IMG/VR virus record: IMGVR_UViG_3300025674_000106
Span: 1-40,791 of that record
Reading direction: 5' to 3' (one strand)
DNA length: 40,791 bases
Source of the DNA: a virus
The position numbers were made by a program, and so were the translations under genes. Below are positions 22,600-40,151 of the stretch, in pieces; the stretch's first letter is position 1, and the number at the start of each line of letters is the position of its first letter. The notes beneath the pieces are model-generated. The model worked only from the letters and a program-made list of their open reading frames with translations, made no database searches and had not been told where the DNA came from.

Positions 22600-23562
22600 A
22601 TGAGTTCGTTCAAACAATTCAATTCAAAGGATGTAGTAATATCACCCTTTAAAGTTAATAAAAGTTTTACTTTTAAGGGGGCTTCACAGTTTACAGGTTC
22701 TAATGTAGGGATAGATAGACTTATTGGGAAAAATATAACACCCACAAATAATATTTCTACTGAACCCACTACGGGTCAGATTTCAACTGTTCCTGAAAGA
22801 TTAGTATATGATTCAATAAAACAGTTATATTATTCTAATTTTTTATTAGATTCATCTGGTAGTATTGCTACCACAGCTTCTTTTAATAATGATGGAACTA
22901 TAACAAATTCAAGACGCACAACTAACTACTATAATTATCTATCATCAGATTTAGTACCTAGAAGAGAGTTTCCTACCCAATCTGATGCCAGGATAGGAGT
23001 AATATCTATACCATCTAAATTATTTGGAGAATATATTAAACCTGGTACTTTTGAATATGAAGAAGAAGGCACTAAAATTACAGATGATGGAGAAGGTAAT
23101 TTATTTGATACACTAGGAAATCAATTAGGTAATATAGTATATGAACATGGGATTGCTGTAATAACAGTAGATAGTACAGGTTCATATAAATCTTTATATG
23201 GTCATGCTGTTTATGGAACTGATTTGTATGGTGATAGTGGTGGATTCCCTAGTTTTTTAACTAGCTCTAACGCCACATGTTCGTTTGAAAGTACTTTAAC
23301 TTTAAATGAAGTACAATATGCTGCTCGTATTAGTGAAAATGAATTTGGATACTCTTTAAACCCTACCTTAATATCAGGGAGTAACATTAATAGTAACACT
23401 TATTATGATTTTGCTACAGGTTCATTTTTTCAACCCTACATCACTACAGTAGGGATGTATAATAATAGTTATGATTTATTAGCTACAGCAAAACTGGCTA
23501 GACCTCTTCCGGTTTCAAAGTTTACAGATACAACAATAATGGTTAATTTAGATATGTTTTAA
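22600..23562 (+). CDS. Structural protein, paralogue of the previous gene
   Basis: A 320-residue protein starting MSSFKQFNSKDVVIS and ending NPTLISGS, PYITTVGMYNNSYDLLATAK, LARP and MVNLDMF, closely parallel to the protein at 21575 in both termini. Its middle (about 75-235) is unrelated by eye and has Tyr/Gly-rich stretches such as SLYGHAVYGTDLYGDSGGF. A duplication followed by divergence or domain exchange in the middle is the simplest reading. Probably a tail surface protein; the stop overlaps the GIY-YIG gene start. Confidence 0.7.
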   Translation: MSSFKQFNSKDVVISPFKVNKSFTFKGASQFTGSNVGIDRLIGKNITPTNNISTEPTTGQISTVPERLVYDSIKQLYYSNFLLDSSGSIATTASFNNDGTITNSRRTTNYYNYLSSDLVPRREFPTQSDARIGVISIPSKLFGEYIKPGTFEYEEEGTKITDDGEGNLFDTLGNQLGNIVYEHGIAVITVDSTGSYKSLYGHAVYGTDLYGDSGGFPSFLTSSNATCSFESTLTLNEVQYAARISENEFGYSLNPTLISGSNINSNTYYDFATGSFFQPYITTVGMYNNSYDLLATAKLARPLPVSKFTDTTIMVNLDMF

Positions 23563-23984
23563 TGAATTGGATTTACGAAGGAAAAGAAATAACAGACATT
23601 TCCCATTTTCCAGAAAATACATTTGGTTTTATTTATGAAGTAACCCATATACCCTCAGGTAAGAAGTATATTGGGAAAAAACAATTATTTTTTAATAAAA
23701 AACTTCCACCTCTTAAAGGATACAAAAGGTGGAGAAAAGTAGTTAAAGAGGGTAATTGGAAAACTTATTTTGGTTCTCATGATTATATAAAGGGACTACT
23801 TAAAGAAAATAAACAAGAAGAATTTAAACGTGAAATTATACAAATTTGTTATTCCAAAAAAGAACTCACATATAGTGAAACAAAATTTCAAATGATGTTT
23901 GAAGTCCTAGAAAATCCTTCGTATATTAATAGCAACATACTGGGGAAATTCTTTAGATCCGATCTAGAGAATTATAAAGACTAA
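23562..23984 (+). CDS. GIY-YIG-type endonuclease
   Basis: A 140-residue protein with a GIY-YIG nuclease core: GFIYEVTHIPSGKKYIGKKQ (22-41) supplies the two Tyr/Gly motifs, a conserved W-x-x-Y-F-G-S block follows (WKTYFGS, 66-72), and E106 in SETKFQ fits the metal-binding glutamate. Such enzymes in T4-like phages are homing or DNA-degrading endonucleases. It is encoded directly after a structural gene (taATG overlap) and before the primase; it interrupts no gene here, so a free-standing homing or repair/degradation nuclease is equally possible. Confidence 0.75.
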   Translation: MNWIYEGKEITDISHFPENTFGFIYEVTHIPSGKKYIGKKQLFFNKKLPPLKGYKRWRKVVKEGNWKTYFGSHDYIKGLLKENKQEEFKREIIQICYSKKELTYSETKFQMMFEVLENPSYINSNILGKFFRSDLENYKD

Positions 23985-25693: not shown

Positions 25694-26494
25694 ATGATAT
25701 CATTAATACAACTATTAAAAGAACAAACTGGTGAACCCAAAGCTGTTATTTTAGCAGGTGCTCCTGGAGCAGGAAAAGGATCCATTTTAAAAGATCTGGA
25801 TCTAGGAGGACTTAAAATACTTAATGTAGATAATATCTTTATTAAAAATCTTAAACAAGCTAATGTTAGTTTAGATTTAAAAAATGCAACACCTGAAGAA
25901 AGAGTTGAACAAGCCAAACAAATGGCGGCAGCTAATAAAGAATTTAAAGGTGAATTGCAAAGTGTAATAGATGGTAAACAATCATTTGTACTAGATGGTA
26001 CTGCAGCCTCATATAAAAAAACTGCTGAGCTAAAACAACAATTAGAAGAAGCAGGATATAAAATAATGATGCTTTATGTTTACACTGATTTAGAACGTTC
26101 TCTAAAGCAAAATGAAAAACGATTTGAAAAATCAGGTGGTGAAGATAGAAGTTTAGCACCTGCCATTGTAATGCGTACCTGGAAAAGTGTAACAGATAAT
26201 ATAGAACCCTATTTTAATCTATTTACACCTAATTTTATAGCTGTAGCTAATACGCTAAAAGGTGATAAAATGGAGGATATAGAAAAAATTATTAAAAAAT
26301 ACCTTACTCCATTTAAACCCACAGGAACTAAACCTAAAACCCCAGCACAACAACAAAAATCAAAGGAACAAAAAGCAAAATTAAACGCTGAAATTCAAGA
26401 TATGCTAGATGAAGAATTTATAGCAGATATTCTGCAATATACAATATCTAAGGAAGAAGCACAAATGAGATTAAAACAATTCCTAAATGGTTAA
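25694..26494 (+). CDS. P-loop kinase, zeta-toxin-like
   Basis: A 266-residue protein. A short N-terminal segment (MISLIQLLKEQTGE) containing LLKE-Q is followed by a Walker A motif GAPGAGKGS (22-30), NVDN (about 45-48), FVLDGTAAS (about 97-105) and LYVYTDLERSLKQNEKR (about 127-143), the order expected for zeta-toxin or polynucleotide-kinase-like enzymes. ELKQQLEEAGYK and VMRTWKSVTDNIEPYFNLF match the same family. The C-terminus (about 215-266) is a Lys/Gln-rich linker plus helix. The substrate is unknown. First gene of a late unit; overlaps the next gene by 8 bases. No antitoxin is nearby. Confidence 0.7.
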   Translation: MISLIQLLKEQTGEPKAVILAGAPGAGKGSILKDLDLGGLKILNVDNIFIKNLKQANVSLDLKNATPEERVEQAKQMAAANKEFKGELQSVIDGKQSFVLDGTAASYKKTAELKQQLEEAGYKIMMLYVYTDLERSLKQNEKRFEKSGGEDRSLAPAIVMRTWKSVTDNIEPYFNLFTPNFIAVANTLKGDKMEDIEKIIKKYLTPFKPTGTKPKTPAQQQKSKEQKAKLNAEIQDMLDEEFIADILQYTISKEEAQMRLKQFLNG

Positions 26495-28856
26495 AATAGG
26501 ATTATATGGAGGTGGGTTTAAACCCCCAACTAGGGGACATTTTGAAGTAGTTCAAAAAATTATAAACGAGTACCCTGATCTAGACATGTTAATAGTTCTA
26601 GTTGGAAAAGGTATACGTGATGGAATTTCCCAAGATGAATCTATATTGATTTGGAATTTATATAAAAAATATCTTCCACTAAAAGTAAGAATTATTCCTG
26701 TTTCATCCCCTGTAGGAGAAATTTATAGTTTATCTAAGGATAATTTAGAAGATGAATTTATTTGGTTTTTAGGTGAAAGGCAGGGTAAAGAAGAAGATGT
26801 TAAGGATATTGAAATTCGTACTAAACATCTTACTAATAAAAAAGAAAATTATCCTAATTTAACTACAGCTGTTATATCTACTAAAGATGCTAATATTAGT
26901 GGAACCCAAGCTAGAAAATATCTTAAAAATCAAGATAAAACAGGATTTTTTAGTTTAATACCTGATTCCCTTTCAAATGAAGAAAAAAATGAGGTGTATA
27001 ATATTTTATCCCCATCTATAGAAGAAGGCAGAAAGAAAAAACGTGACCCTAAAACGGGGACAGGTAAAAAACCTGAAAGATCAGGAAGACGACTATACAC
27101 AGATGAAGATCCTAAGGATACTGTAGGTATTAAATTTAGAACTAAAGAAGATGTAGTAGATACTTTAAATAAAAAATCATTTAAGGCTAAATCTCATGCA
27201 CGTCAATCTCAAATAATTAATTTAATACATCAAAGGGTAAGAGCAGCTTACCAAAATGCTAAAGATCCAGATACTAAAAATAGATTAAAACGTGGTTTAG
27301 ATTACATTACTAATAGAAAGGAAAAATCTAAAGAAAAAACAAAAAGGTTAAGACAACAAAATGAAGGTATAAAGGGATTTACTAAAGGTAATGTAGGTAC
27401 AAGATATAGAGCAATAGAAAAAAGAGGTAATAAATATTATTACAGACAAGATGATCCCTTAGGCGCTGGTATTAAACAGGAATTTGGTCCATTTGATACT
27501 AAAGCTCAAGCTATTAAAAAAATGGAAAAATTCCCTCCCGCTACTAGTTATAGAGATATTACAGATAATATAGATCCTAAATCACAAGAAAAGCATAAAG
27601 GCAAATCTTCACCTTATGGGTCAGCATATAAACCTGTGGATGAAGGAGATACCTATGAAAAAATGGCTGCTAAAGGTAAAAAGTCGGGCGATTTAAAGCA
27701 GGGTACTGTTAGAAAAAGATTAGGTATAAAAAAAGGAGAAAAGGTCCCATTATCTTTAATTAAAAAAGAAATATCACGTTTGAAAAAAATGGATAAAGAT
27801 CCTAAAAAGAAAGGAGCCCAACTAGGAGACAAAAATCAAAAATATTATAAAGCATTACAGTTGGCTAAAACTTTAAAGACAACTACTAACGTTAATGAAA
27901 ATGCCACTTATTCTAATAGTATAGATTATAAACAACAAATTTTAGATCTTACTAAACATATGTTAGAAAAAGGAGAAAAGATTACCCCTTTACCTAAGGT
28001 TATTTTTAAACATGGGGATCAAGAAAATGCCAAAGAATTTTTAGGTAAAACTGCGTATTATGATCCTAATACAATGACTATTGTATTATACACTGAAGGT
28101 AGACATCCAAAAGATATTGTTAGGTCATTTTCTCATGAAATGATCCATCACCAACAAAATTTAGAAGGTAAATTAAATAATATTAATACTACTAATACTT
28201 TAGAAGATGATTATCTTGAGGATATAGAAAAAGAAGCCTATTTAGATGGTAATATTAATTTTAGAAATTACACAGATAGTCAATTACACGAAAAGAAAAA
28301 AGTAAAAGATCCTTTTGGAATATCTGCCTTTGCTTATGAATTAGCTCGTGGTTTAGAAGAACAAGAAGAAAAAATAGAAACTAAATACACTATTTACTCA
28401 GATATGGATGGTGTATTAACTGATTTTGATAAAAGATTTAAAAAGTTTTCTAAAGGTATTGCACCTAAAGATTATGAAAATAAATTTGGATTAAAAAAGT
28501 TTTGGAATTTAGTTGATAATATTGGGGGGTTAGATTTTTGGGCCAATATGGATTGGATGTCTGATGGTAAAGAATATTGGAATTACATTTCAAAATATAA
28601 CCCTATCATTCTAACTGCCCCATCAATGAACCCAGTTTCAAGATTAGGTAAAAGACAATGGAGAGATGGTAATTTACCAGGTGTCAAAATGAAAATGGCT
28701 TCCGCAAGAAACAAACCTAATTATTCCAAAAGAAATTCTATTTTAATTGATGATAGAAAGGATACTATAGATGCATGGAACGCAGCAGGTGGTATAGGTA
28801 TACTTCATACATCTGCTGCTAGTACGATTGAAAAATTAAAAGAACTTGGTTTATGA
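26487..28856 (+). CDS. Multidomain protein: nucleotidyltransferase, basic modules, metallopeptidase, HAD phosphatase
   Basis: A 789-residue chain of at least five modules. Residues 1-175 are a NMNAT/cytidylyltransferase-like domain with GGGFKPPTRGH (8-18) and ISGTQAR (137-143). Residues 185-290 are very basic; 304-350 hold a small repeat-like module (RYRAIEKRGNKYYYRQ, EFGPFDTKAQAIKKM); 388-465 another helical basic module. Residues 473-600 hold a zinc-peptidase motif HEMIHHQQ (550-557) with E583 downstream. Residues 632-789 are a HAD phosphatase: DMDGVLTDFD (639-648), T710, and LIDDRKDTIDAW (753-764), like 5'-nucleotidases. Module borders carry IEEG (178), NEG (292), VDEG (384), VNEN (469) and LEEQ (623), resembling prohead-protease sites. 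I infer a cleaved, packaged polyprotein. Confidence 0.75.
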   Translation: MVKIGLYGGGFKPPTRGHFEVVQKIINEYPDLDMLIVLVGKGIRDGISQDESILIWNLYKKYLPLKVRIIPVSSPVGEIYSLSKDNLEDEFIWFLGERQGKEEDVKDIEIRTKHLTNKKENYPNLTTAVISTKDANISGTQARKYLKNQDKTGFFSLIPDSLSNEEKNEVYNILSPSIEEGRKKKRDPKTGTGKKPERSGRRLYTDEDPKDTVGIKFRTKEDVVDTLNKKSFKAKSHARQSQIINLIHQRVRAAYQNAKDPDTKNRLKRGLDYITNRKEKSKEKTKRLRQQNEGIKGFTKGNVGTRYRAIEKRGNKYYYRQDDPLGAGIKQEFGPFDTKAQAIKKMEKFPPATSYRDITDNIDPKSQEKHKGKSSPYGSAYKPVDEGDTYEKMAAKGKKSGDLKQGTVRKRLGIKKGEKVPLSLIKKEISRLKKMDKDPKKKGAQLGDKNQKYYKALQLAKTLKTTTNVNENATYSNSIDYKQQILDLTKHMLEKGEKITPLPKVIFKHGDQENAKEFLGKTAYYDPNTMTIVLYTEGRHPKDIVRSFSHEMIHHQQNLEGKLNNINTTNTLEDDYLEDIEKEAYLDGNINFRNYTDSQLHEKKKVKDPFGISAFAYELARGLEEQEEKIETKYTIYSDMDGVLTDFDKRFKKFSKGIAPKDYENKFGLKKFWNLVDNIGGLDFWANMDWMSDGKEYWNYISKYNPIILTAPSMNPVSRLGKRQWRDGNLPGVKMKMASARNKPNYSKRNSILIDDRKDTIDAWNAAGGIGILHTSAASTIEKLKELGL

Positions 28857-29428
28857 GAGATAATGTTTTAAAAAAAGAATTTAATAAAAAAGATGTTCAA
28901 AGAATTAGAAATTTAGTACAAGGAAAATATGGAGATAAAACCACACAAAGTGTGGGTTATAAAAAAGGTTATATTGAAAGGAAAGAAGGTGATGTTTGGG
29001 AAGAAAAAGGACAAACTTGGACTATAAAAGAAGGTATCAGACAAAATGTTACTAAATTAGATAAAGCAAAAAAAGCTTTTAAAACCCCATTATTCTGCCC
29101 TGAATGTGGTACATTAATGAAAAAAAGATTTGACTCCCAGTATTATAAAATACACAAAATGTGTTTTGATTGTGTTATTGAAAAAGAACAACTCCTTAAA
29201 TTAGAGGGTAAATGGGAAGAATATAAAAAAAATATTCATAATGCCGATATAGATGGTATGATAACTGATTATACTTCATTTATGTCTGCTGCTTTAAAAG
29301 AAACTAATGATTCATTTATAACTGAAGCTGGTGATGTAGAAAAATGGGATGGTGGTGTAAATAAAGAACGTGCTGAAGAAGCTTTAAAAAAAGGAATTGA
29401 ATATTTAGAATCTAAGAAAATAAAGTAA
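28853..29428 (+). CDS. Zinc-ribbon protein of the packaged-protein cassette
   Basis: A 191-residue protein. The N-terminal part has FNKKDVQRIRNLVQGKYGD (10-28) and a segment GDVWEEKGQTWTIKEGIRQN (46-65), followed by a four-cysteine zinc ribbon: C82/C85 (FCPECG) and C104/C107 (MCFDC). The C-terminal helices include ITEAG (156-160), a possible prohead-protease site. I recall similar proteins in marine T4-like phages, always without known function. ATGA overlap with the polyprotein gene indicates coupled translation. Confidence 0.65.
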   Translation: MRDNVLKKEFNKKDVQRIRNLVQGKYGDKTTQSVGYKKGYIERKEGDVWEEKGQTWTIKEGIRQNVTKLDKAKKAFKTPLFCPECGTLMKKRFDSQYYKIHKMCFDCVIEKEQLLKLEGKWEEYKKNIHNADIDGMITDYTSFMSAALKETNDSFITEAGDVEKWDGGVNKERAEEALKKGIEYLESKKIK

Positions 29429-29446
29429 TTCTAACTGTAAAGACAC

Positions 29447-29456
29447 ATATTTATAA
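29447..29456 (+). promoter_or_regulatory. ATATTTATAA element (candidate phage late promoter)
   Basis: ATATTTATAA lies 17 bases before the ATG at 29474, in a 45-base gap, and opens the second part of the cassette. Confidence 0.5.
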
Positions 29457-29473
29457 AATATAATACTAATACC

Positions 29474-29815
29474 ATGACCAAAAAAGAATTAAAGGAAATG
29501 ATTAAAGCATCTATAATAAATGAGATGCATTGTTCTAAAGAAGTAAGAGAACAAGAAGAAGAAGAGGTAGAAGTAGAAACTGAAGAAGAAGTTGAAATCG
29601 AAGCACCAACCAGAGAATTATCTGCTGAAGAAGAAATAGTTCAGGATAGTTTAGAAAAGGCGCTTGAGGCAGCAAAAAAACTAGATAATGAAAAGTTAGT
29701 TACCCAAATAGCTAATACTATTACCTATTTTACAAGATCTGAGGTAATTAAAGAAAATCAAAAAACAGAAGTTGACATTAAAGATAGATTTTTAAGAACC
29801 CTTAGAATGTCCTAA
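29474..29815 (+). CDS. Small acidic protein with the recurrent N-terminal helix motif
   Basis: A 113-residue protein. Residues 5-17 (ELKEMIKASIINE) show the shared helix pattern and end at IINE-M, a possible prohead-protease site. Residues about 25-55 are almost entirely Glu/Val/Thr. The C-terminal 60 residues form helices (DSLEKALEAAKKLDNEKLV, then KDRFLRTLRMS). In T4, small packaged proteins are likewise cut from an N-terminal leader. Function unknown; placed among probable packaged proteins, one base before the next gene. Confidence 0.65.
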   Translation: MTKKELKEMIKASIINEMHCSKEVREQEEEEVEVETEEEVEIEAPTRELSAEEEIVQDSLEKALEAAKKLDNEKLVTQIANTITYFTRSEVIKENQKTEVDIKDRFLRTLRMS

Positions 29816-29816
29816 A

Positions 29817-30803
29817 ATGCCTTATAAAAGAGTAGGTAAATGTGTCCATAAGAAATATGCTAATAAAAATATTTCTAAAAAACCTATAGGGTGTTCGGAT
29901 AGTACAGCAGATGCTAAAGAATACCTAAAAGCTCTTTACGCTAGCGAAATGAATGAAAGAAAAGAAATGTCCTCAAACGAAATATCTAAAAGAGAAGATA
30001 TTATAAAAGGGATGTTAAACAATAAAAGAGCCTTAGTTAAAAAATATGGTACTGATGCAGAAAAAGTAATGTATGGTACCGCAACATCAAAAGCTAAAAA
30101 AATTGCCGAAATGGAATCAAAAGATAAACTTAGAGAAATTATTAAAAATGCCCTTTCTAAACCTATGGAGGAGGAAAAAACAGATAAATATGATGATCAT
30201 CCTGCTTTAAAAGGAAAGCAAAAAGATAATTTACCTGATGGCCTCCAGAAAGCTATTATTAAGAAAAAAGGGGGTAAAGTTGAAGAGGGTGATTTAGATT
30301 TAGGCCATCAGGATGATGAACCTGGAATGTTAAAATCTAACCTTTATACTCTAGGTAAAGATGTTATAGCATTATATAAGATGGTTTCTGAATTTGATGA
30401 TATGGAAGGTGAAGTAGATTTCCCCCATTGGTGGCAATCAAAAATAATTAAAGCTAAAGATTATATTACTTCGGCTAAACAATATTTGGATTTTGAGGTT
30501 AATGAACCTAAAATAGACATTATGGTAGGTGCTACACCTAAAGTAGAGGATGGGTTAATGGAAACTATTAAAGAATTAAAAAGATCTAACCCCGAAGCCA
30601 CTGTTGAAGAAATTACTAAACAAATCCAAGAAATTAAAATCTTATCAGAAAGAAAAGATACACTTTGTAAACGAGGAAAAGATTACATTAAAGCTCGTAA
30701 AGCAGCAGGTGAAAAATCATCAGCATACCTTTCGGGTCGAGCTGTGAAAGTATGTAAAGGCGATATTAAATTTAAGGGTAAAAAAATAAATAGTTACAAA
30801 TGA
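29817..30803 (+). CDS. Modular basic protein of the packaged-protein cassette
   Basis: A 328-residue protein made of short, separately folded-looking modules. Residues 1-45 hold a Cys-containing basic unit (YKRVGKCVHKKYANK); 56-98 a module SKREDIIKGMLNNKR to AEKVMYGTATSKAKK; 102-120 the recurrent helix KLREIIKNALSKPMEEE; 155-158 VEEG, a possible cleavage site; 171-226 a helical domain with FDFPHWWQ-type centre (VDFPHWWQSKIIKAKDYI); 281-328 a Cys-containing basic end (LCKRGKDYIKARKAAG, KVCKGD). I recall some of these modules from T4-like marine phages, singly and in other combinations. Possibly DNA-condensing internal protein. Confidence 0.6.
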   Translation: MPYKRVGKCVHKKYANKNISKKPIGCSDSTADAKEYLKALYASEMNERKEMSSNEISKREDIIKGMLNNKRALVKKYGTDAEKVMYGTATSKAKKIAEMESKDKLREIIKNALSKPMEEEKTDKYDDHPALKGKQKDNLPDGLQKAIIKKKGGKVEEGDLDLGHQDDEPGMLKSNLYTLGKDVIALYKMVSEFDDMEGEVDFPHWWQSKIIKAKDYITSAKQYLDFEVNEPKIDIMVGATPKVEDGLMETIKELKRSNPEATVEEITKQIQEIKILSERKDTLCKRGKDYIKARKAAGEKSSAYLSGRAVKVCKGDIKFKGKKINSYK

Positions 30804-31081
30804 TTACTGAATCCCGTCTTAGAGAAATAGTAAGAGAATCATTAAGAGATTGGTTCAAAAAAGAAGACTGGGTAAAAATTAATACTGCTGGTACAATTGA
30901 AGGTCCTTGTGGTACAATGGATAAAAAAGAACCAACCCAAAGATGTTTACCTCGTAAAAAGGCTCAATCCATGACCAAAGCAGAACGAGCCGCTACTGCA
31001 AGGAAAAAAGTACGTGGGTCAAGGAAAGGTAAGCAATTTGTTAAAAATACTCGTAAGGGAAAGTTTAAGAAGAAATCATGA
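30800..31081 (+). CDS. Small very basic protein with the N-terminal helix motif (DUF5872-like)
   Basis: A 93-residue protein. Residues 5-17 (SRLREIVRESLRD) match the recurrent N-terminal helix. The rest (EDWVKINTAGTIEGPCG, QRCLPRKKAQSMTKAERAA) resembles DUF5872, a small family with paired cysteines (here C37 and C49) seen in phages and large DNA viruses, and ends in a Lys/Arg-rich tail. Its charge suggests DNA contact inside the head. ATGA overlaps join it to both neighbours. Confidence 0.65.
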   Translation: MITESRLREIVRESLRDWFKKEDWVKINTAGTIEGPCGTMDKKEPTQRCLPRKKAQSMTKAERAATARKKVRGSRKGKQFVKNTRKGKFKKKS

Positions 31082-31527
31082 CAGTTGAACAGTTTAAAGA
31101 AAGAATAAGAACGATTGTCAAAAAGGTGTATGTTCCTAAAGAGGAAGATGCTCCCGTAATTGATTTTGAAGAATTTAAAACATTCCCAGAACTTAGGGCA
31201 GTTATTATAGATTTATTAACTACGGATTATGGAAGTTTTATAGCATCTATTGATTATGTTGCTCCTAAACCTACTACATTTAGAATTAATTTGAAAAATG
31301 GACAATTCTTTTATTTAATTTGGAATGAAAGAAGTTGGGTTGCTCAAGTAGAGGGTAAAAAATACTATCTTTTAAATTTAAATGAAGAAGAACGTGCTAT
31401 TGAATCAATAGCTAGAATTTTAAGATTTGCTGCTCCTGAAGGTATGGAAGGAGATAATAATACAGATGTGGACACAGATGTAGAAACAGAAGAAACCGAA
31501 GAAGTAGAAACTGAAGAAACAGAATAA
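31078..31527 (+). CDS. Small protein with N-terminal helix motif and acidic tail
   Basis: A 149-residue protein. The start (QFKERIRTIVKKVYVPKEE) is a looser version of the recurrent helix. The middle (about 50-110) alternates strands, with FRINLKNGQFFYLIWNERSW and QVEGKKYYLLNLNEEERAI, and looks like a small alpha/beta domain. The last 30 residues are nearly all Asp, Glu and Thr. It overlaps the genes on both sides. No family recognised. Confidence 0.6.
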   Translation: MTVEQFKERIRTIVKKVYVPKEEDAPVIDFEEFKTFPELRAVIIDLLTTDYGSFIASIDYVAPKPTTFRINLKNGQFFYLIWNERSWVAQVEGKKYYLLNLNEEERAIESIARILRFAAPEGMEGDNNTDVDTDVETEETEEVETEETE

Positions 31528-32621
31528 TGGATAGTTTTACTAAATATTTAAATAAAATATCATATAAGTTCCCTAAGGGTTATCCTGACATTAACGACCC
31601 TAAGGATAAAAATATGCTATTTGAAATGGTAACTTCCCTACTTGAAAATGATGCAGATGAAGCTATTAATATCTTAAAGAGGGAATTAAACCTTACTGAT
31701 GAAAATTTTTCAAAGTTATCATCGGTTAGATATAAATTATTAGTTCCTAGGGCTGAAAGATATGATTATATTCAAAAAATTGAAAAAATAAAGGACTTTG
31801 AATATGACCCTAATATAAAGGGTTCTTCCATAGGAGGAGTTACTTATAAAGGTTCTACATTTCTCTTAAAACCATCTGGGGCCCAAGGCAGAGCATCTGC
31901 AGGAACCGAAAATGAAGATATTTTAGAAAATGAAATAAAAAAATACCTTGAAATGGGTGCAGTTAACGTTATATTTGATGCTCCTAATAAATCTTTAACT
32001 ATAAAAAACGTTAAGGATATTTCAGGTGTTGGATATGATGTAGCAGGTGGTAAAAAAGCTGATGTTGTTATAAAAGGAGATAAAACATATCCCATTTCAA
32101 TTAAAAAAGATAATGCGGGTTTTTGGGAATCATCTGATACTAGGTATAAAGATGTAGTAAAAAAATTATCAGAAAAAATTAAAAAAGGAGATTTTGCTCC
32201 TGAGTTAGTATTTAAACCTTTTGTAGATAAATTAGGTAGAGAAAAGGAGGGTATTAATTTAATGCATGATGATAGAACGGACACTAAAGTTACTGGTGTT
32301 ATAGTAACTGATCTTCCTGATAAGGATGAAAAGTCTATTATATTTGGTTCGGATAATGCTGTAGTAATTTACAGATCTTATTCTTCTAAAGATTTTAAAT
32401 TAGTAGATGATAATTTATATATAGAAGTTTCTAAAATTATAGAAAACCTAAAAGATGTAGAGGAATTTAATTTGGAACCTATTCTTAATATTAGACATGA
32501 TTCCACTAGAACTGCTACAGGTGGGTTAAGAGCTACCGTCCAACCTGAAAATAAAATCTATAGAGATTCTAAGGTTATAGGAAATAAAATTGAAATTCCT
32601 TACGATAAAATTATGGCGTAA
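31527..32621 (+). CDS. Putative PD-(D/E)XK-like nuclease
   Basis: A 364-residue protein. Residues 127-141 (TENEDILENEIKKYL) supply a helix with glutamates, followed by VNVIFDAP, and then KKADVVIKGDKTYPISIKKDN (176-196) gives D179 and S191-I-K193, the layout of a PD-(D/E)XK core with the usual Glu replaced by Ser. Many restriction-type enzymes have this order, but the match is by eye only. The C-terminal part (about 260-345) is unassigned. Located inside the packaged-protein cassette, so it might be injected to attack host DNA. It could also be a structural protein with coincidental residues. Confidence 0.5.
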   Translation: MDSFTKYLNKISYKFPKGYPDINDPKDKNMLFEMVTSLLENDADEAINILKRELNLTDENFSKLSSVRYKLLVPRAERYDYIQKIEKIKDFEYDPNIKGSSIGGVTYKGSTFLLKPSGAQGRASAGTENEDILENEIKKYLEMGAVNVIFDAPNKSLTIKNVKDISGVGYDVAGGKKADVVIKGDKTYPISIKKDNAGFWESSDTRYKDVVKKLSEKIKKGDFAPELVFKPFVDKLGREKEGINLMHDDRTDTKVTGVIVTDLPDKDEKSIIFGSDNAVVIYRSYSSKDFKLVDDNLYIEVSKIIENLKDVEEFNLEPILNIRHDSTRTATGGLRATVQPENKIYRDSKVIGNKIEIPYDKIMA

Positions 32622-33223
32622 TGTGTAACTGTGGGTGTAATATATGTGAAACTAAACCTTTTACTCTTAATGAGAATAAAACTTCTAAATCTCTTTTATC
32701 TGAAGGACTTAGATATTGTTTAGAAAAAGAAAAACCATTAACTGAACATGTTTACAGAGCAGGATCTGAAGCATATTTTAATTTATGGGCTGAAGCAAGA
32801 GCATTATATTCAAGAAACCTAATTAATGTGACAGGTGCAGATAAAGAAATTTTAACTGAAACTGATTTGGGTCATTATGGGATGTATGAGAATAAAAAAG
32901 TACCTTTAGATTTTATATTTGAAGCTGAATATCAAGGAAGAGAAGTAGAATTGAACCAACCTAAAAGAGGTGGTTCTAAAAAATTCTTTGTGTATGTAAG
33001 AGATCCAAAGACTAAAAATATCAAAAAAGTATCATTTGGTGCTAAAGAAGGAGGCCAGAGATTATCTGTTAAACTAGATGATCCCGATAAACGAAGAGCA
33101 TTTTCGGAAAGACATAATTGCTCTGAAAAAAACGATAAAACAAAACCTTCATATTGGTCTTGTAGATTGCCTCGTTATTGGAAGTCCTTAGGTGGAAGTA
33201 AAAATTATGGTGGATTCTGGTAA
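32621..33223 (+). CDS. Cys-rich protein with conserved RHNC/WSCR end
   Basis: A 200-residue protein. The N-terminus has four cysteines (C2, C4, C6, C9). LNEN (16-19) and LLSEG (25-29) resemble prohead-protease sites. The middle (HVYRAGSEAYFNLWAEARAL, 43-62) and the C-terminal block (KKFFVYVRDPKTKNIKKVSF, then RHNC 164-167 and YWSCRLPRYWKS 178-189) belong, as far as I recall, to a family found in T4-like marine phages and in other large DNA viruses. The paired Cys/His suggest a metal site. Function unknown; probably enters the head. Confidence 0.6.
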   Translation: MCNCGCNICETKPFTLNENKTSKSLLSEGLRYCLEKEKPLTEHVYRAGSEAYFNLWAEARALYSRNLINVTGADKEILTETDLGHYGMYENKKVPLDFIFEAEYQGREVELNQPKRGGSKKFFVYVRDPKTKNIKKVSFGAKEGGQRLSVKLDDPDKRRAFSERHNCSEKNDKTKPSYWSCRLPRYWKSLGGSKNYGGFW

Positions 33224-33488
33224 ACCATATTCTGACACTCATATTTCAGAAAATAGTTTTATAAGGGTTTTTGATGATAATATAGACCCTATAGAATTAC
33301 TCTGGCACCGTGATAAAGAAGATCGTACTGTAGAAGTACTTCACGATACAGATTGGCAGTATCAAGAAGATAATAAATTGCCTATTGAACTTAAAGAAGG
33401 TATTAGTATATTTATACCGAGATATAGTTGGCATAGACTAATCAAAGGTACAAACAAATTAAAACTTAGAATAGTTAAAAATGGATAA
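33207..33488 (+). CDS. Small cupin-like protein
   Basis: Ninety-three residues from ATG 33207. The pattern ELLWHRDKEDRTVEVLHDTD (near 32-51), DWQYQEDNKLP and IFIPRYSWHRLIKG is that of a small cupin barrel, with His residues in the usual metal-binding places. Catalysis or sugar/metal binding cannot be told. The ATG at 33207 is preferred to a GTG at 33192 because it carries the aaaattATG leader usual in this phage. It overlaps the upstream gene by 17 bases and the next by 8. Confidence 0.65.
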   Translation: MVDSGKPYSDTHISENSFIRVFDDNIDPIELLWHRDKEDRTVEVLHDTDWQYQEDNKLPIELKEGISIFIPRYSWHRLIKGTNKLKLRIVKNG

Positions 33489-34050
33489 ATTTGATTTTAA
33501 AGCTTATATAGCAGACAATCCACTTCTAAGAGAACAAGAAGAATTATCAGCTTCAGATATTGGAGCTGATATGGCTAGTTTAGCTGGAGAACTAGATGAT
33601 GTCATTGAAGATGAATTAGAAGGTAAAGAGGAAGAACTTAATGAAGCTCTGGATCCTGCATCACTTTTATCCTATCTTCTAGCATCAAATACCATAGTTA
33701 ATATTTTATCTAAAAAAGCTATGAAAATGGCTAATAAATATGATTGGGGTAAGGGTGAGGAAGCAGCTAGGAATATTTATAAGTTTACTCATGAATTAGA
33801 AGAAAAATTTAAATCTCCTATTAAGTTTATAGTTTCTAAATTTACTAAAGACCCTAAAAGAGTAAAACTTGTAACTAACTCTTTATTTATACTATTTCTA
33901 GGTTATTTAGCTTTCCACGCAGGGGGGAGTGCTCTTAAATATTTAAAACAAGCAAAACTATCAGCTGGAGGAATAGCTGGTTTAAAAGCAGCTTTGAAAG
34001 GTAAAGATATTGCAGCAACAGCACAAGATATAATTAATGATTTAGCATAA
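33481..34050 (+). CDS. Protein with membrane-active helices, last gene of the cassette
   Basis: A 189-residue protein. The start DKFDFKAYIADNPLLREQEE resembles the leader peptides of T4 internal proteins in layout and contains LLRE-Q; LNEA follows at 53-56. Residues 58-77 are hydrophobic, and 130-150 (KLVTNSLFILFLGYLAFHAG) form a probable membrane helix, followed by an Ala/Gly/Lys-rich amphipathic end. A packaged protein that inserts into the host membrane during DNA entry is a reasonable guess, nothing more. Ends 60 bases before the strong terminator. Confidence 0.6.
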   Translation: MDKFDFKAYIADNPLLREQEELSASDIGADMASLAGELDDVIEDELEGKEEELNEALDPASLLSYLLASNTIVNILSKKAMKMANKYDWGKGEEAARNIYKFTHELEEKFKSPIKFIVSKFTKDPKRVKLVTNSLFILFLGYLAFHAGGSALKYLKQAKLSAGGIAGLKAALKGKDIAATAQDIINDLA

Positions 34051-34063
34051 AAACGAATTTATA

Positions 34064-34116
34064 GCCTGATTCATAGCCAGGCGCCTTTTAGGGTCAAAAT
34101 TATGCAGCTGTGGCGC
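34064..34116 (+). other. Alternative stems ahead of the terminator (possible attenuator)
   Basis: GCCTG (34064-34068) can pair with CAGGC (34078-34082), and GCGCC (34081-34085) can pair with GGCGC (34112-34116), which is also the left arm of the terminator. These stems exclude one another, as in attenuators. They are short (5 bp) against an 11-bp terminator stem, so the effect would need a protein or ribosome. Confidence 0.3.
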
Positions 34117-34144
34117 ATCCTTTTTGGATAGCGCCACTTTTTTT
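34110..34144 (+). terminator. Strong Rho-independent terminator
   Basis: GTGGCGC-ATCC (34110-34120) pairs with GGAT-(A)-GCGCCAC (34126-34137), an 11-bp stem with one bulged A and a T5 loop, followed by seven T. It closes the 29.4-34.05 kb gene group. Confidence 0.9.
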
Positions 34145-34154
34145 CGTATATTTA
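34123..34154 (+). promoter_or_regulatory. Candidate host-type (Bacteroidota) promoter for the FAD gene
   Basis: TTTG (34123-34126), exactly 20 bases, then TATATTTA (34147-34154). This fits the Bacteroidota pattern TTTG, 19-21 bases, TAnnTTTG except for the last base. The -33 element lies in the loop of the terminator, so the two signals are nested. The gene starts at 34168. Confidence 0.5.
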
Positions 34155-34167
34155 AAAAAAAGAATTA

Positions 34168-35493
34168 ATGGATAAAAAAATAGTAATTGTAGGAGCCGGA
34201 GTTGCAGGTGTAAATGCAGCTACAAAATTAGTAGATAATGGTTATCCTGGAAGTAATATTACTATAATTGATATGGGTAAATCACCTTATGAAAGAAAAC
34301 CTGAGGAAGTAATGACAGGGTTTTTAGGAGCAGGTGGTTGGAGTGATGGTAAACTTACTTACCATACTTCCATTGGAGGACATATGTCAAAATATTGTGG
34401 TGAGGAAAAAGCAATGGAATTATTTGACCAAGTAATTACTAACTTCAAACGATTCCACCCTAACCCAGAAGAAGTACAATGTTCAGATCCACAGGCAGAA
34501 CCTGATTTTATTAAACCATATTTTGGTTTACGATTATTCCCAGTATGGCACGTTGGTACAGATTATCTACATGAAATTGGAAAAAATTGGTATGATTATT
34601 TAGTATCTAAAGGTGTTAATTTCGAATGGGAAACTAAAGTTGTATCAATTGATTTTAAAGAACAATTTTTTGAGGCACTTGATGTTTATCAACTTGACCA
34701 ACCTTATGCTAATACACGAGTTGGTAAATACGATCGTTTAATATTTGGTGTAGGTAAATCAGGTATTGATTTTGGTAAACAATTAGCAGAAGATTATTCC
34801 TTTCCTACTGAATCTAAACCTGTACAAATAGGAGTACGTTTTGAGGCCCCACAAAAACATTTTCAAAAATTAATTGATATTTCATATGACTTTAAATTAT
34901 ATAGAAAATTTGAAGATAAAGGAGTATCATTACGTTCATTCTGCACTAACAATAATGCTGCTTTTGTTGCTGTAGAAGAAACATATGGGGATCATTCATA
35001 TAATGGACATGCTAAAAAAGATGAAGCATATCGTAATGATATGACTAATTTTGGTATTTTAATGGAAATCCGAGGTATAGATAATCCTTTTGAATGGTCA
35101 AGAGAATTAGTAGAAAAAGTTCAAGCTCACGGAACAGGATTATATTATAGCCCGTCTCGTAAACCATCAACAACTTCAGAAGGTGATAATGTAAGTGCAC
35201 ACCAAATAGATTGGATGGGATTACAAGTAGTAGCTGAACATTTTCAAGGTTATTTTGAATACATTTCAGATTTTATTGATGATATGAAAAAAGTATTTCC
35301 AACACTTGAAGATGATTGGGGTATTTATATTCCTGAAGTAAAATATCTATCACCAGAACCTAAAGTAGATTATAGCAATTTAACATTAGATCAATTCGAA
35401 AATGTACATTTTGCTGGAGATGCCCTATCTGCAAGGGGTATTACAGTTTCAGGAGCACAAGGTATTTATATAGCAGAATCATTATTAAATTAA
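34168..35493 (+). CDS. FAD-dependent oxidoreductase (COG2509-like)
   Basis: A 441-residue flavoprotein. A dinucleotide-binding motif V-G-A-G-V-A-G (8-14) sits at the N-terminus, GAGGWSDGKLTYH (about 55-67) is a second conserved FAD-contact block, and FAGDALSARGITVSGAQGIY (about 414-433) is the typical C-terminal FAD segment of the COG2509-like 'FAD-dependent dehydrogenases'. The natural substrate of this family is not firmly known. A complete, apparently intact metabolic-type enzyme is unusual in a T4-like phage. It has its own host-type promoter, follows a strong terminator, and uses CGN for 9 of 13 arginines, unlike late genes. Probably an auxiliary metabolic gene acquired from a bacterium. 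Confidence 0.85.
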   Translation: MDKKIVIVGAGVAGVNAATKLVDNGYPGSNITIIDMGKSPYERKPEEVMTGFLGAGGWSDGKLTYHTSIGGHMSKYCGEEKAMELFDQVITNFKRFHPNPEEVQCSDPQAEPDFIKPYFGLRLFPVWHVGTDYLHEIGKNWYDYLVSKGVNFEWETKVVSIDFKEQFFEALDVYQLDQPYANTRVGKYDRLIFGVGKSGIDFGKQLAEDYSFPTESKPVQIGVRFEAPQKHFQKLIDISYDFKLYRKFEDKGVSLRSFCTNNNAAFVAVEETYGDHSYNGHAKKDEAYRNDMTNFGILMEIRGIDNPFEWSRELVEKVQAHGTGLYYSPSRKPSTTSEGDNVSAHQIDWMGLQVVAEHFQGYFEYISDFIDDMKKVFPTLEDDWGIYIPEVKYLSPEPKVDYSNLTLDQFENVHFAGDALSARGITVSGAQGIYIAESLLN

Positions 35494-35497
35494 AATT

Positions 35498-35767
35498 ATG
35501 TCAGACAAAAAATTTGAGTACAAAACCATTACATCTAACGGTCAAAGGATGTATTTAGCTAAAGGACCTAAAGATAAAGCTTTTAAGTTTCATAGATATG
35601 ATGGTCCTGCTATTGAACCTATTGAAAGACGTGGAGGAGCAAGAAAAGCTTATTATCTTTATGGTATAGAATATGGGTTTGAGGAATATCAAGAGTTAAT
35701 GAGGGAAAGAAAAGGTGTTCCTTTCCATAAAACAGCTTTAGGTAAACAATCTGGTGCAAGAACATAA
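35498..35767 (+). CDS. Small protein with an 'HRxDGPA' motif
   Basis: An 89-residue basic protein. The centre FHRYDGPAIEP (about 31-41) followed by KAYYLYGIEYGFEEYQEL (about 50-67) is a motif I have seen in short phage and large-virus proteins (HR-x-DGPA ... W/Y-Y-x-x-G), of unknown role. It follows the FAD gene by 4 bases with an aaaattATG leader and probably shares its transcript. Confidence 0.6.
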   Translation: MSDKKFEYKTITSNGQRMYLAKGPKDKAFKFHRYDGPAIEPIERRGGARKAYYLYGIEYGFEEYQELMRERKGVPFHKTALGKQSGART

Positions 35768-35775
35768 ATTATAGT

Positions 35776-36306
35776 ATGAAAATTGGATTATGTGGTACAA
35801 TGTCTGTAGGTAAAACTACATTAGTTAAGGCATTAGAATATGAAGTTGAATTTATTGACTATAAATTTACTACTGAACGATCTAAATACTTAAGAGATTT
35901 AGGTATTCCATTAAATACTGATTCTACAGTAAAGGGTCAATCTATATTTTTAGCGGAGAGAGCTAGTGAGTTATTAAATGAAAATATCATTACAGACAGA
36001 ACTATTATTGATGTAATGGCATTTGCTAAATGTGCGGATTCAATTAGTGAAGATGATGCTAAGAAATTTTGTGATTTTGCTTCTACTATGTTAGGGGATT
36101 ATGATCATATTTTTTATGTTTCTACTGAAGGTACTATTATAGAGGATAATGGTGTTAGGACTATAGATGAAGAGTATAGAGAAAAAATAGATAATACTAT
36201 TAGAGAATTATTATTTGAATATAGGGATCAAATAAAAGATTTTACTACTATCAGTGGCACTACAGAACAACGTTTAAAACAAATAAATGAGGTATTATTT
36301 CCTTAA
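35776..36306 (+). CDS. P-loop kinase, AAA_28/NadR-like
   Basis: A 176-residue protein with a Walker A motif GTMSVGKT (7-14), TTERSKYLRDLG (about 31-42), a DR motif in ITDRTIIDVMAFA (about 72-84) and FYVSTEGT (about 113-120). This order fits the AAA_28 group, which includes the ribosylnicotinamide-kinase part of NadR, and other deoxynucleoside-kinase-like enzymes. The substrate cannot be fixed. If it phosphorylates nicotinamide riboside, it would pair with the NMNAT-like domain encoded at 26.5 kb. It probably shares a transcript with the FAD gene and ends where the next late element begins. Confidence 0.7.
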   Translation: MKIGLCGTMSVGKTTLVKALEYEVEFIDYKFTTERSKYLRDLGIPLNTDSTVKGQSIFLAERASELLNENIITDRTIIDVMAFAKCADSISEDDAKKFCDFASTMLGDYDHIFYVSTEGTIIEDNGVRTIDEEYREKIDNTIRELLFEYRDQIKDFTTISGTTEQRLKQINEVLFP

Positions 36307-36315
36307 TATTTATAA
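36306..36315 (+). promoter_or_regulatory. ATATTTATAA element (candidate phage late promoter)
   Basis: ATATTTATAA overlaps the stop codon of the kinase gene and ends 12 bases before the ATG at 36328; TATAAATA overlaps it (36311-36318). It opens the terminase-portal group. Confidence 0.5.
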
Positions 36316-36327
36316 ATAAACTTCACC

Positions 36328-36687
36328 ATGGGACTTAATAAACCTAAACTAAAGGAAATTATAAAAAAAGAGATAGTAGAAATTCTTACTGAGGCCGATC
36401 CCGAAGATATTAAGGCTCAACAGGATTTAAATAAAGAATTAGAAACTACTAAAAGTTTAGCTGATGAAGTGGGAGATGCTTTAAGTGAACAAGATGATGA
36501 ACCCACTGCTTCTGATTTAAAAAGTGATTCTGTGGCTTCATTAGCTAGAGAATTAGGTAAAATTACCCGTGAAATGAAAACAGTAGTAAATCAGTGGAAA
36601 AAATCAGAAGGTGAAGAAAAAGAAGATTTACTTAAAAGATTAAAAGAGCTAACCGCTATGAAGAAAGAGGTTGAGGCTCTCCTCTAA
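36328..36687 (+). CDS. Small helical protein with the recurrent N-terminal helix motif
   Basis: A 119-residue, highly charged helical protein. The N-terminus KPKLKEIIKKEIVEILTEAD (5-24) is the clearest example of the recurrent helix and ends at ILTE-A, which matches the [L/I]xE-A preference of the T4 prohead protease. The remainder (ARELGKITREMKTVVNQWKK) is coiled-coil-like. Located directly before the terminase, where a small terminase or head-core protein might be expected, but neither can be shown. Confidence 0.65.
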   Translation: MGLNKPKLKEIIKKEIVEILTEADPEDIKAQQDLNKELETTKSLADEVGDALSEQDDEPTASDLKSDSVASLARELGKITREMKTVVNQWKKSEGEEKEDLLKRLKELTAMKKEVEALL

Positions 36688-36689: not shown

Positions 36690-38258
36690 ATGTCACAGGA
36701 TCTAAAAAAAATAATTCGTCAGGAATACATTAAATGTGCAACTGATCCTGTACATTTTATGAAAAAATACTGTTTTATTCAACACCCCCAAAGAGGTAAA
36801 ATATTATTTACTTTATACCCTTTTCAAGAAAAAGTATTGCAATTGTTTAAGGACAATCCTTATTCATTAATACTTAAATCTAGACAGTTAGGTATTTCTA
36901 CTTTAACTGCTGGATATTCTCTTTGGTTAATGTTATTCCATGAGGGGAAAAATGTATTATGTGTAGCTACTAAGCAAGAAACAGCCAAAAATCTAGTAAC
37001 TAAGGTTAAATTTATGTATGATAATTTACCTTCCTGGTTACAAATTTCAACTGAAGAAAACAATAAATTAACATTAAGATTAACTAACGGCTCCCAGATA
37101 AAAGCAACTTCAGCTGCTTCAGATGCTGGTAGATCAGAAGCTGTATCTATGTTAGTAGTTGATGAAGCAGCATTTATTGAAGGTATAGATAACATATGGG
37201 CCTCAGCTCAACAAACATTATCAACTGGAGGGGGTGCTATCGTACTTTCCACACCTAATGGAACTGGTAATTGGTTCCATAAAATGTGGACTAAAGCCGA
37301 AGCTAAAGAAAATGAATTTTTGCCTATTAGACTACCTTGGATGGTTCATCCCGAAAGAGACCAATCATGGAGAGATAGACAGGATGATTTATTAGGTGAC
37401 CCTCGTATTGCAGCTCAAGAATGTGATTGTGACTTTAATACATCAGGTGATGTTGTATTTTATAATGAATGGATTGAATTCATAAAAGAAACTACAATTA
37501 AGGATCCTGTTGAGAGAAGAGGTGTCGATCAAAATTTATGGATATGGGAATCCGCAGATTACGCCAGGGAATATCTAATTACTGCTGATATTGCCAGGGG
37601 TGATGGAAAAGATTTTTCTACCGCACATATAATAGATATTGAAACAAATACCCAAGTAGCAGAATTTAAGGGTCAATTGCCTCCTAAAGAATTTGGTTAT
37701 TTCTTAGTTGGTTTAGCTGCTGAATATAATAATGCAATGTTATGTCCTGAGAATGCTAATATAGGATGGGCTACTATTGATGCTATACGAGAAAGAGGAT
37801 ACAGAAATTTATATCATTCCCCTAAATCTGATAAACTGACTGCAGAATCATATCTTCAGACCTATGAAGGTAACTCTGAAATGGTTCCTGGTTTTACTAT
37901 GTCAATGAGGACTAGACCTTTAATTATTAATAAATTTAGGGAATTTGTAGGAGATAGAAGTGTGACAATTCGTTCTAAAAGGCTTTTAGAGGAAATGAGA
38001 GTATTTATATGGAAAAATGGTAGACCAGAAGCTCAAGTAGGATATAATGATGATTTAATTATGGCTTTTGGGATTGCTATGTTTTTAAGAGATACTTCAC
38101 TTAAATTCCAACAAGAATCACTTGATAGAGCTAAAGCTGCTCTTGGTAGTGTTAGAAAAAATGACTATTATACCCCAGGTGTAGTAAGTAATAGAACAAA
38201 AAACCCATATACTATGGAAATAGATGGGAAAAATGAAAATATAACTTGGCTTTTATAA
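36690..38258 (+). CDS. 17: Terminase large subunit, T4 gp17-like
   Basis: A 522-residue packaging ATPase-nuclease (T4 gp17 has 610). The ATPase half has KSRQLGIST (63-71) as Walker A, in which the usual lysine before Ser/Thr is Ile and a lysine stands at the start as in lambda gpA, and Walker B MLVVDEA (154-160, D158/E159). A motif III-like STPNGTGNW lies near 187-195. The nuclease half has D300 in TADIARGDGKD, E354 in CPENAN and D454/D455 in GYNDDLIMAF. It cuts concatemers and drives DNA into proheads through the portal, encoded next. Confidence 0.95.
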   Translation: MSQDLKKIIRQEYIKCATDPVHFMKKYCFIQHPQRGKILFTLYPFQEKVLQLFKDNPYSLILKSRQLGISTLTAGYSLWLMLFHEGKNVLCVATKQETAKNLVTKVKFMYDNLPSWLQISTEENNKLTLRLTNGSQIKATSAASDAGRSEAVSMLVVDEAAFIEGIDNIWASAQQTLSTGGGAIVLSTPNGTGNWFHKMWTKAEAKENEFLPIRLPWMVHPERDQSWRDRQDDLLGDPRIAAQECDCDFNTSGDVVFYNEWIEFIKETTIKDPVERRGVDQNLWIWESADYAREYLITADIARGDGKDFSTAHIIDIETNTQVAEFKGQLPPKEFGYFLVGLAAEYNNAMLCPENANIGWATIDAIRERGYRNLYHSPKSDKLTAESYLQTYEGNSEMVPGFTMSMRTRPLIINKFREFVGDRSVTIRSKRLLEEMRVFIWKNGRPEAQVGYNDDLIMAFGIAMFLRDTSLKFQQESLDRAKAALGSVRKNDYYTPGVVSNRTKNPYTMEIDGKNENITWLL

Positions 38259-38267: not shown

Positions 38268-40151
38268 ATGGCTGATAAAGGATTATTTAGTAGACTGCAA
38301 AGATTATTCTCAACTGATGTTGTTATAAGAAATACAGGGAATAACCAATTAAAAACTATAGATACTAGACATATACAGGTATCTGGTAATATAGAAACTA
38401 ATTCACTTATTGATAGATTTAATAGAATTTATACTAATAGTATATCATCTTTATATGGTCAACAAGTGTCTTATAACTATAAAACTTTAAGACCATCTTT
38501 ATATGCTGAATATGATGCTATGGATACTGATGCTATCATAGCTTCTGCCTTGGATATTATTTCGGATGAAAGTACACTTAAAAATGATTTAGGAGAAGTA
38601 CTACAAATTAAATCACCAGATGAAAATATTCAAAAGATACTTTATAATCTTTTTTATGATGTGATTAACATAGAATTCAATTTATGGCCTTGGATTCGTA
38701 ATATGTGTAAGTATGGGGATTTCTTTTTAAAATTGGAAATAGCTGAAGATTTTGGAGTTTATAATGTTATCCCTTATTCTGCTTTTAACATAGAAAGAAT
38801 AGAATACTCAGACCCAGAAAACCCAGCTAAAGTAATGTTTAAGTTTGATCCGGACGGGATAGTATCTGATTCCTATGGCTATACAACTGTTCCTAACCAA
38901 AATAAGGACGCAAGAGCTATTTATTTTGATAATTACGAAGTTGCACACTTTAGATTACTTACAGACGTTAATTTTCTCCCCTATGGTAGAAGTTACATAG
39001 AACCAGCTAGAAAATTATTTAAGCAATATACTTTAATGGAGGATGCTATGTTAATTCATAGAATAGTAAGAGCTCCAGAAAAACGTATATTTTATTTAAA
39101 TATAGGTTCTATTCCTCCCAATGAAATTGAGGCGTTTATGGAGAAAACTATTTCTAAATTAAAAAGAACTCCATATGTTGACCCACAAACTGGTGATTAT
39201 AATTTAAAATATAATCTTCAAAATTCTTTAGAGGATTTTTATATCCCTGTAAGAGGCAATGATTCAGCTACTAAAATAGAAACTACTCCCGGACTACAAT
39301 ATGATGGGATTACTGATGTTATTTATTTAAGAGATAAATTATTTGCAGCCCTAAAAGTACCTAAGGCCTTTATGGGGTATGATGAAAATCTAGAGGGTAA
39401 AGCTACTTTAGCGGCACAAGATATTAGATTTGCTAGAACAATTGAAAGAATACAAAGAATTATTACATCTGAGTTATATAAAATTGCCATGGTTCATCTC
39501 TATTCACAAGGTTATACTGGTGAGCAATTAGCTAATTTTGAATTATCATTGACTAACCCATCCATTATATATGATCAAGAAAGGATTGCGTTGTTAACGG
39601 AAAAAACAGCACTAGCGAATGAATTAATTAATAATGGATTATTGCCTACTGATTGGGTGTATGAAAATATCTTCCATTTATCCGAAGATCAATATGACGA
39701 ATATAGAGAATTAATTTTACAGGATAAAAAACGTAAATTTAGACAAAACCAGATGGAAAATGAAGGTAATGATCCTATGGAATCTGGAAAGTCTTATGGT
39801 ACACCCCACGATCTAGCTTCATTGTATGGTAAAGGTAGAACATATTCTGATCCTAATAATTTGCCTGATGGGTATAATGAAAATGAACCCTTAGGTAGAC
39901 CTCAAGAAAAAGTTACTAATCGAAATACTCAAGATGATAACTTTGGTAAGGATAGATTAGGAGTAAAAAGAATGAAAGACACAGATAAGAATGAGGGATC
40001 TAGTTCTGCTTTATCTTTAGAAGGTAGGTATTATATTTCTAAATACTCAGATATGCTAAAAAATATTCCTTCTTCTAATAAGAAACGTATTATATTTGAG
40101 GATGATAAATCCGGAGAATCTTTATTAGATGAATCAAATATTAAGGACTAG
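38268..40151 (+). CDS. 20: Portal vertex protein gp20
   Basis: A 627-residue protein (T4 gp20 has 524). The N-terminal part has SLYAEYDAMDTDAIIASALD (about 83-102) and the middle has NLWPWIRNMCKYGDFFLKLE, typical of gp20, followed by KRIFYLNIGSIPPNEIEAFM and YLRDKLFAALKVPKAFMGYDE. The portal is a dodecamer at one head vertex through which DNA passes. The last 120 residues form an Asn/Gly/Pro/Lys-rich extension absent from T4. It follows the terminase directly; in T4 the tail sheath and tube genes stand between the two. Confidence 0.95.
   Translation: MADKGLFSRLQRLFSTDVVIRNTGNNQLKTIDTRHIQVSGNIETNSLIDRFNRIYTNSISSLYGQQVSYNYKTLRPSLYAEYDAMDTDAIIASALDIISDESTLKNDLGEVLQIKSPDENIQKILYNLFYDVINIEFNLWPWIRNMCKYGDFFLKLEIAEDFGVYNVIPYSAFNIERIEYSDPENPAKVMFKFDPDGIVSDSYGYTTVPNQNKDARAIYFDNYEVAHFRLLTDVNFLPYGRSYIEPARKLFKQYTLMEDAMLIHRIVRAPEKRIFYLNIGSIPPNEIEAFMEKTISKLKRTPYVDPQTGDYNLKYNLQNSLEDFYIPVRGNDSATKIETTPGLQYDGITDVIYLRDKLFAALKVPKAFMGYDENLEGKATLAAQDIRFARTIERIQRIITSELYKIAMVHLYSQGYTGEQLANFELSLTNPSIIYDQERIALLTEKTALANELINNGLLPTDWVYENIFHLSEDQYDEYRELILQDKKRKFRQNQMENEGNDPMESGKSYGTPHDLASLYGKGRTYSDPNNLPDGYNENEPLGRPQEKVTNRNTQDDNFGKDRLGVKRMKDTDKNEGSSSALSLEGRYYISKYSDMLKNIPSSNKKRIIFEDDKSGESLLDESNIKD

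Follow-up and report, generated by a model that had tools for sequence, protein, structure and literature searches.

The closest described counterparts of the genes considered here lie in bacteriophage T4, whose internal proteins IPI, IPII and IPIII, unrelated to one another, each carry a short N-terminal propeptide, the capsid-targeting sequence (CTS), which ends at the L/I-X-E site after which the prohead protease gp21 cuts (PMC9026906). The T4 head also packages the ADP-ribosyltransferase Alt (PMC9026906), an enzyme cargo with short, gp21-cleaved propeptides, and abstracts on phiKZ and SPN3US report many cleaved, packaged head ejection proteins (PMC5694885, PMC10052503), cut after a glutamate behind a short motif (PMC9026906). 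We analysed a 40,791-nucleotide (40.8-kb) virus contig, IMG/VR record IMGVR_UViG_3300025674_000106 (hereafter the window), which carries late genes of a T4-like marine myovirus, and for which an earlier note, made from the letters alone, had proposed that a helical N-terminal segment on several dissimilar proteins acts, as in T4, as a capsid-targeting leader that a gp21-type protease removes. Comparative evidence strongly supports that proposal: short N-terminal segments of four families (A to D) are shared by hundreds of unrelated phage proteins, and we judge, with a probability of about 0.83, that they are removable capsid-targeting leaders for cargo of the phage head.

Set beside the known systems, the leaders would be capsid-targeting sequences by design, whereas A, B and C do not qualify as T4 CTSs by sequence, being unlike MKTYQEFIAEA and longer (20-29 residues). 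Leader D has the same length as the T4 CTS (MKTYQEFIAE/A, the slash here and below standing after the glutamate), with hydrophobic residues at positions 4, 7 and 8 and a glutamate at position 10, and no further match; the hydrophobic positions and E10 are those that matter in the T4 CTS (PMC9026906). In contrast to T4, four interchangeable types coexist here, on far more cargoes than T4's handful. The likeness to Alt is seen in a candidate cargo of a related contig, a D-led ADP-ribosyltransferase (ART-PolyVal), which differs in belonging to another ART family (PF18760, 1.3e-27, above cut-off). The phiKZ and SPN3US proteins belong to another phage lineage with another protease, and their abstracts describe no small set of shared, swappable leaders. 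Our search of the open literature, which left subscription journals outside and so leaves a prior description possible, returned nothing on the leader peptides, nor on a capsid targeting sequence in connection with metagenomic T4-like phages.

In the mechanism that we propose, a leader would bind the prohead scaffold core (gp22 and small core proteins) and draw its protein into the prohead, where the S77 prohead protease gp21 would cut after the hydrophobic-x-E at the leader end and release the mature protein within the head, for injection with the DNA into the next bacterium; leaders A to D would serve this one destination and be exchanged among cargo genes. What the sequences themselves show is the leaders, their sharp L-x-E end, their exchange, the match to the gp22 tail, the presence of gp21 and the absence of leaders from labelled replication and metabolic enzymes; core binding, cutting by gp21, packaging and injection are what we infer.

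Four leader families and their glutamate end

Leader profiles were built from matches to degenerate DNA patterns in IMG/VR, with the window excluded from the training set, and every open reading frame (ORF) was scored. Leader A, the motif of the earlier note, has the consensus MKKSELKQIIKEEISKVLNE or MKITKSQLKQIIKEELxxVLxE, leader B MENFDLKKFLVENKLTxNSRxLxE, leader C (MKKQ)ILSEEFRRMQKLAGIITE and leader D MIKLxDILKE; the last three were recognised in relatives. The matches listed for the A, B and D pattern scans are a lower bound and the C scan comprised 110 stretches; in the fetched loci the ORFs that begin with A, B or C number at least 976, and their bodies fall into 543 clusters, 425 of them singletons, mostly with no match to known families in Pfam or PHROGs.

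Conservation of the leaders ends sharply. Outside the positions fixed by the search pattern, the [VI]-L-x-E of leader A keeps 1.3-1.8 bits, with 0.9 at its x, whereas the residue after the glutamate has 0.5 bit and those beyond it about 0.2 or less; leader B shows the same drop right after LL[KNES]E. The proportion of body clusters that have a hydrophobic-x-E where the leader ends is 74% for A and 86% for B, as against 15% and 10% in control segments further in. The sequence of T4 gp23 reads FLTE/A, to be compared with ILTE/A in the window protein that starts at 36328. Leaders within one genome are also more alike than expected by chance (for A, 0.526 vs 0.438, standard deviation 0.005), as if matched to a phage-specific receptor.

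All six segments that the earlier note had joined into one pattern are present in position and frame. At the leader A threshold of 10 the profile accepts those at 9587 (15.9), 36328 (14.5) and 29474 (10.5) and the internal segment of 29817 (13.4, at residue 103), and rejects 30800 (2.7) and 31078 (-1.1), so that the single pattern holds for four of the six. The glutamate ends that the note had read are there as well, as ILTE/A (36328), IINE/M (29474) and ILLE/A (9587, residues 25-29), its LSE-G being LLSE/G in 32621.

Ties to the head and competing explanations

A near-identical contig (L019), which shares the portal at 100% over residues 163-627, extends the window to the right and encodes there the gp21 gene that the note had expected (L019:3854-4453; S77 prohead protease, PF03420, E 1.8e-25), the scaffold gp22 (L019:4559-5803) and the shell protein gp23 (L019:5823-7454; PF07068, E 2.5e-77); an S77 gp21-type protease and a gp23 shell are both encoded in relatives too. 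The C-terminal tail of gp22 links the scaffold to the leaders: in 11 of 11 phages it is of the type RxxKLAG(I/L) and resembles RMQKLAGI(I), the core of leader C, reading RFKKLAGL in this phage and RMRELAFGKK in one variant (G025). In the interval from gp20 to gp21, which in T4 holds gp67/gp68, most genomes encode a small protein whose A-like helix ends at a glutamate and is followed by an xSxTGGG, FTxGxGxQ stretch; xSxTGGG-type sequence also lies downstream of QLVxE, the presumed maturation site of the shell protein. In this phage the glutamate is followed by ISLSGGGVAGGTF in the core-position protein (L019:2273-3061) and by SSLSGGGVAGGSF in the shell protein. This local similarity ties the A-like leader end to the maturation site, and the shared stretch may mean that the two proteins dock alike or that one complex is where both are cut.

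Two further comparisons concern where leaders are found. Of 85 tag-bearing contigs 62 encode gp21, namely 29/35 of the large and 33/50 of the mid-size ones, and each group exceeds the random contigs, where gp21 is present in 2 of 32 (Fisher p 9e-11 for large, 4e-8 for mid-size), the random set, with its many isolate-derived records, mostly below 60 kb, being a better match for the mid-size than for the large group. The earlier note had named, as the finding that would count against it, a motif equally common on replication enzymes; in ten whole genomes none of the 134 labelled replication, nucleotide, chaperone or DNA-modification enzymes is tagged, vs 63 of 1859 other proteins (p = 0.02, or p = 0.04 when only proteins of at least 150 residues are compared).

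Several observations weigh against a role in head targeting. About a quarter of the A-led body clusters have no L-x-E near the leader end; early or replication genes surround some of the tagged ones, so that position alone does not separate the classes; and a match to a DNA-polymerase exonuclease family is seen for one protein with a tag. In Mel-JY01, a T4-like phage of Microcystis, gp21 is present and no A to C leader rises above threshold, and T4 gp22 ends without the LAG tail, which leaves leader C without a T4 precedent. TerL (36690-38258), the only exception among proteins labelled as virion or packaging components, has a conserved N-terminus of its own that resembles A (score 3.8 here, 8 and 13 in two relatives) and has no L-x-E end; it is not known to be a virion protein in T4. 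We found no virion proteome or N-terminal sequence for any leader-bearing phage, and no virion proteomics in the paper on Flavobacterium phage immuto, the nearest isolate (TerL 58% identical).

Of the other explanations, the one that survives best is that the leaders address another place or partner, such as host RNA polymerase, the membrane, the nucleoid or an assembly of the phage that is not the head, and that L-x-E caps the helix only by coincidence. As a simple amphipathic helix leader A could have many binding partners, and the helix on TerL, the tagged genes within early clusters and the lack of experimental packaging data all suit this explanation; we nevertheless consider it unlikely, since it would not lead one to expect leader C at the tail of the head scaffold, A on core-position proteins, the association of gp21 with tag-bearing contigs, or conservation that breaks off right at a gp21 site in leaders that do not resemble one another.

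The exchange of leaders between bodies, although it fits head targeting by removable signals, could also be read at the level of DNA. In 20 body clusters homologous bodies stand behind different leaders, with the junction just past the glutamate in the clearest cases: one body follows B in immuto, A in L517 and L529 and C in L534 and L537, another has B or C immediately before YxIELLVPxVxF, and 40 D-led proteins are homologous to A-, B- or C-led ones. The leaders thus behave as equivalent, removable modules. Tags that swap among bodies and cluster in tandem small genes might also be signals for recombination or translation by which genes are spread, with a functionless peptide as by-product, an explanation to which we attach very little probability. 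Identical leader residues are encoded by different codons in 26-36% of within-genome comparisons, which argues that selection acts on the peptide and led us to reject a DNA-level repeat; moreover, conservation tracks the peptide and stops at the glutamate rather than in the start codon region, and distinct peptide leaders swap at the same place. Some single proteins carry stacked leaders (C then A, B then A, A then C), as at L524:11840-12592, L577:8065-8793 (minus strand) and L565:8719-9009.

That the shared helix is a chance product of AT-rich, Lys/Glu-rich coding sequence is scarcely credible for the leader family as a whole, even though the consensus is made of these genomes' commonest residues and two of the six original examples fail the profile, because at threshold 10 the passes number 43 of 2510 N-termini against 8 of 16,074 equally sized internal windows and none among shuffled N-termini, A, B and C head the repeated starts that an unbiased N-terminal seed search picks out in several genomes, and none of 872 ORFs in random viral loci is tagged. 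For 30800 and 31078 taken singly, chance composition is still a possible explanation.

In a tblastn search of isolate phages, where the low-complexity filter may hide others, the leader peptides matched the immuto group, a 484-kb metagenomic phage and nothing else. Led genes of immuto (NC_055915) start at 1803, 25061, 102880, 103806, 111675, 113188, 117631 and 118632. Among the cellular genomes of 84,980 GTDB species a single metagenome-assembled genome (MAG) bin matched, through contigs with phage genes; a cellular origin of the leaders was rejected on this ground. The bin, 0.2_20180319_Bin_61_1, is filed as bacterial and holds leader-A phage contigs (CAJQGZ01; L622-L624), apparently from a misbinned virus.

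Cargo genes of the window and of related phages

The window runs from baseplate and fibre genes through a cluster of small genes to TerL and the adjoining portal gp20 (38268-40151), these two genes, and those treated below as tagged here, as weak candidates or as tagged in relatives, lying on the plus strand, and the region has no match among isolate phages by megablast. Its cargo would comprise the A-led proteins 9587, 29474 and 36328, protein 29817 with an internal A, the D-led kinase 25694 and the B-like 33481.

Leader A at 9587-9670 opens a 107-residue protein beside the baseplate genes, 11 of whose 13 homologues score as A and share EELKEILLEA, and that at 36328-36393 opens protein 36328-36687, for which 48 of 52 homologues score as A. 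An AlphaFold model of the latter, made with 26 relatives, has a predicted helix at residues 5-22 that stops exactly at E22, with moderate local confidence (block means 75-82; pTM 0.41). Between these lies 29474-29815 (leader at 29474-29524), whose homologues have A, B or C at the N-terminal end, some of them repeating an A-like helix downstream. In 29817-30803 the leader (30123-30173) lies between two domains, the second of which is encoded on its own in locus L182, behind an N-terminal A leader; this points to two fused proteins that the leader still keeps apart.

The zeta-toxin-like kinase at 25694-26494 (body PF06414, E 4e-17) belongs to the cargo that the earlier note had listed, though its leader (MISLIQLLKE, 25694-25723) is D rather than A; MIxLxxLLKE opens most homologues with intact N-termini, and M1, L4, L8 and E10 are invariant in seven aligned homologues. 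Protein 33481-34050, which the note had not counted among tagged proteins, has a short B-like leader (MDKFDFKAYIADNPLLRE/Q, 33481-33534). The window copy scores -11.6, under the B profile threshold, and the call rests on homology, its homologues aligning from residue 1 and carrying B, A, C or D-like leaders.

The two proteins that failed the profile are weak candidates. The A-like start of the 93-residue protein at 30800-31081 (RLREIVRE/SLRDWF) continues as a helix without a break into a conserved domain that homologues share at 65-72% identity, while that of the 149-residue protein at 31078-31527 is degenerate and has no L-x-E end; 60-odd homologues of the latter begin with a conserved helix likewise without L-x-E, and 6 of 69 score as A, for example MKRSELKDIIVEAYVELLRE. 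Both starts may be body rather than leader.

The earlier cargo list is borne out in part and needs correction. Two further members of it have no leader in this phage, although relatives carry one. The 789-residue chain at 26487-28856 consists of an NMNAT-like start, a linker domain, a peptidase-like part and a HAD/5'-deoxyribonucleotidase (residues 632-789; PHROG 5'-3' deoxyribonucleotidase, E 1.7e-23), with the joints SIEE/G before the linker domain and GLEE/Q before the HAD part. In relatives the linker domain and the HAD part are separate genes with D-like leaders, in L508 (MIKLVDILKEITEGDPKVGTGKK...) and L564 (MIKLKDIFENE...), and these separate D-led pieces, with the two joints, make it possible that the chain is a prohead polyprotein. 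The Cys-rich, zinc-ribbon-like protein at 32621-33223 has relatives with A or D before the CGCG motif, as in MNNLRELIRKVLKE/RTHDCGCGC and MKLIDILKE/SIQPAKKGCSCGC. The nuclease-like 31527 and the cupin 33192, which the note had also listed, are untagged in every homologue found, as are 28853, 34168, 35498 and 35776.

Besides the ADP-ribosyltransferase, D-led bodies include a zeta-toxin-like kinase, a 5'-nucleotidase, a phage nuclease domain and the two enzymes named below, functions of kinds that could pay off if delivered with the DNA. The large genomes tested have at most 12 tagged proteins each, mostly without recognisable domains. An odd candidate cargo is a D-led Fe/Mn superoxide dismutase (PF02777, 1.2e-30). 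A D-led 2H phosphoesterase (L719:96-635, minus strand) has a weak match, below the Pfam cut-off, to the anti-CBASS protein Acb1, and is possibly a head-delivered anti-defence enzyme.

Two other genes of the window may be mentioned. The FAD protein at 34168-35493, upstream of TerL, is an FAD-dependent oxidoreductase, at most 78% identical over 120 homologues in the fetched loci. The ORF at 23562-23984, beside the primase gene, has a GIY-YIG-like start (FIYEVTHIPSGKKYIGKK), which by eye suggests a homing-type endonuclease.

Significance for environmental T4-like phages

Together these comparisons provide a means of listing, from sequence, those proteins of environmental T4-like phages, of uncharacterised kind, that the phage probably injects when it infects. 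The candidate early effectors and anti-defence proteins that thereby become directly testable form a large pool, and new short packaging tags are on offer for protein delivery. The match between leader C and the tail of gp22 suggests how packaging tags arise. A broader view, to which we give even odds, is that environmental T4-like phages possess a general head-loading code made up of four leaders that can be removed and interchanged, with the C-terminal tail of the scaffold as the source from which one was copied, and that this code would serve a large and fast-changing cargo for host takeover and counter-defence, some of it (29817 and 26487) in the form of polyproteins that gp21 would cut in the prohead.

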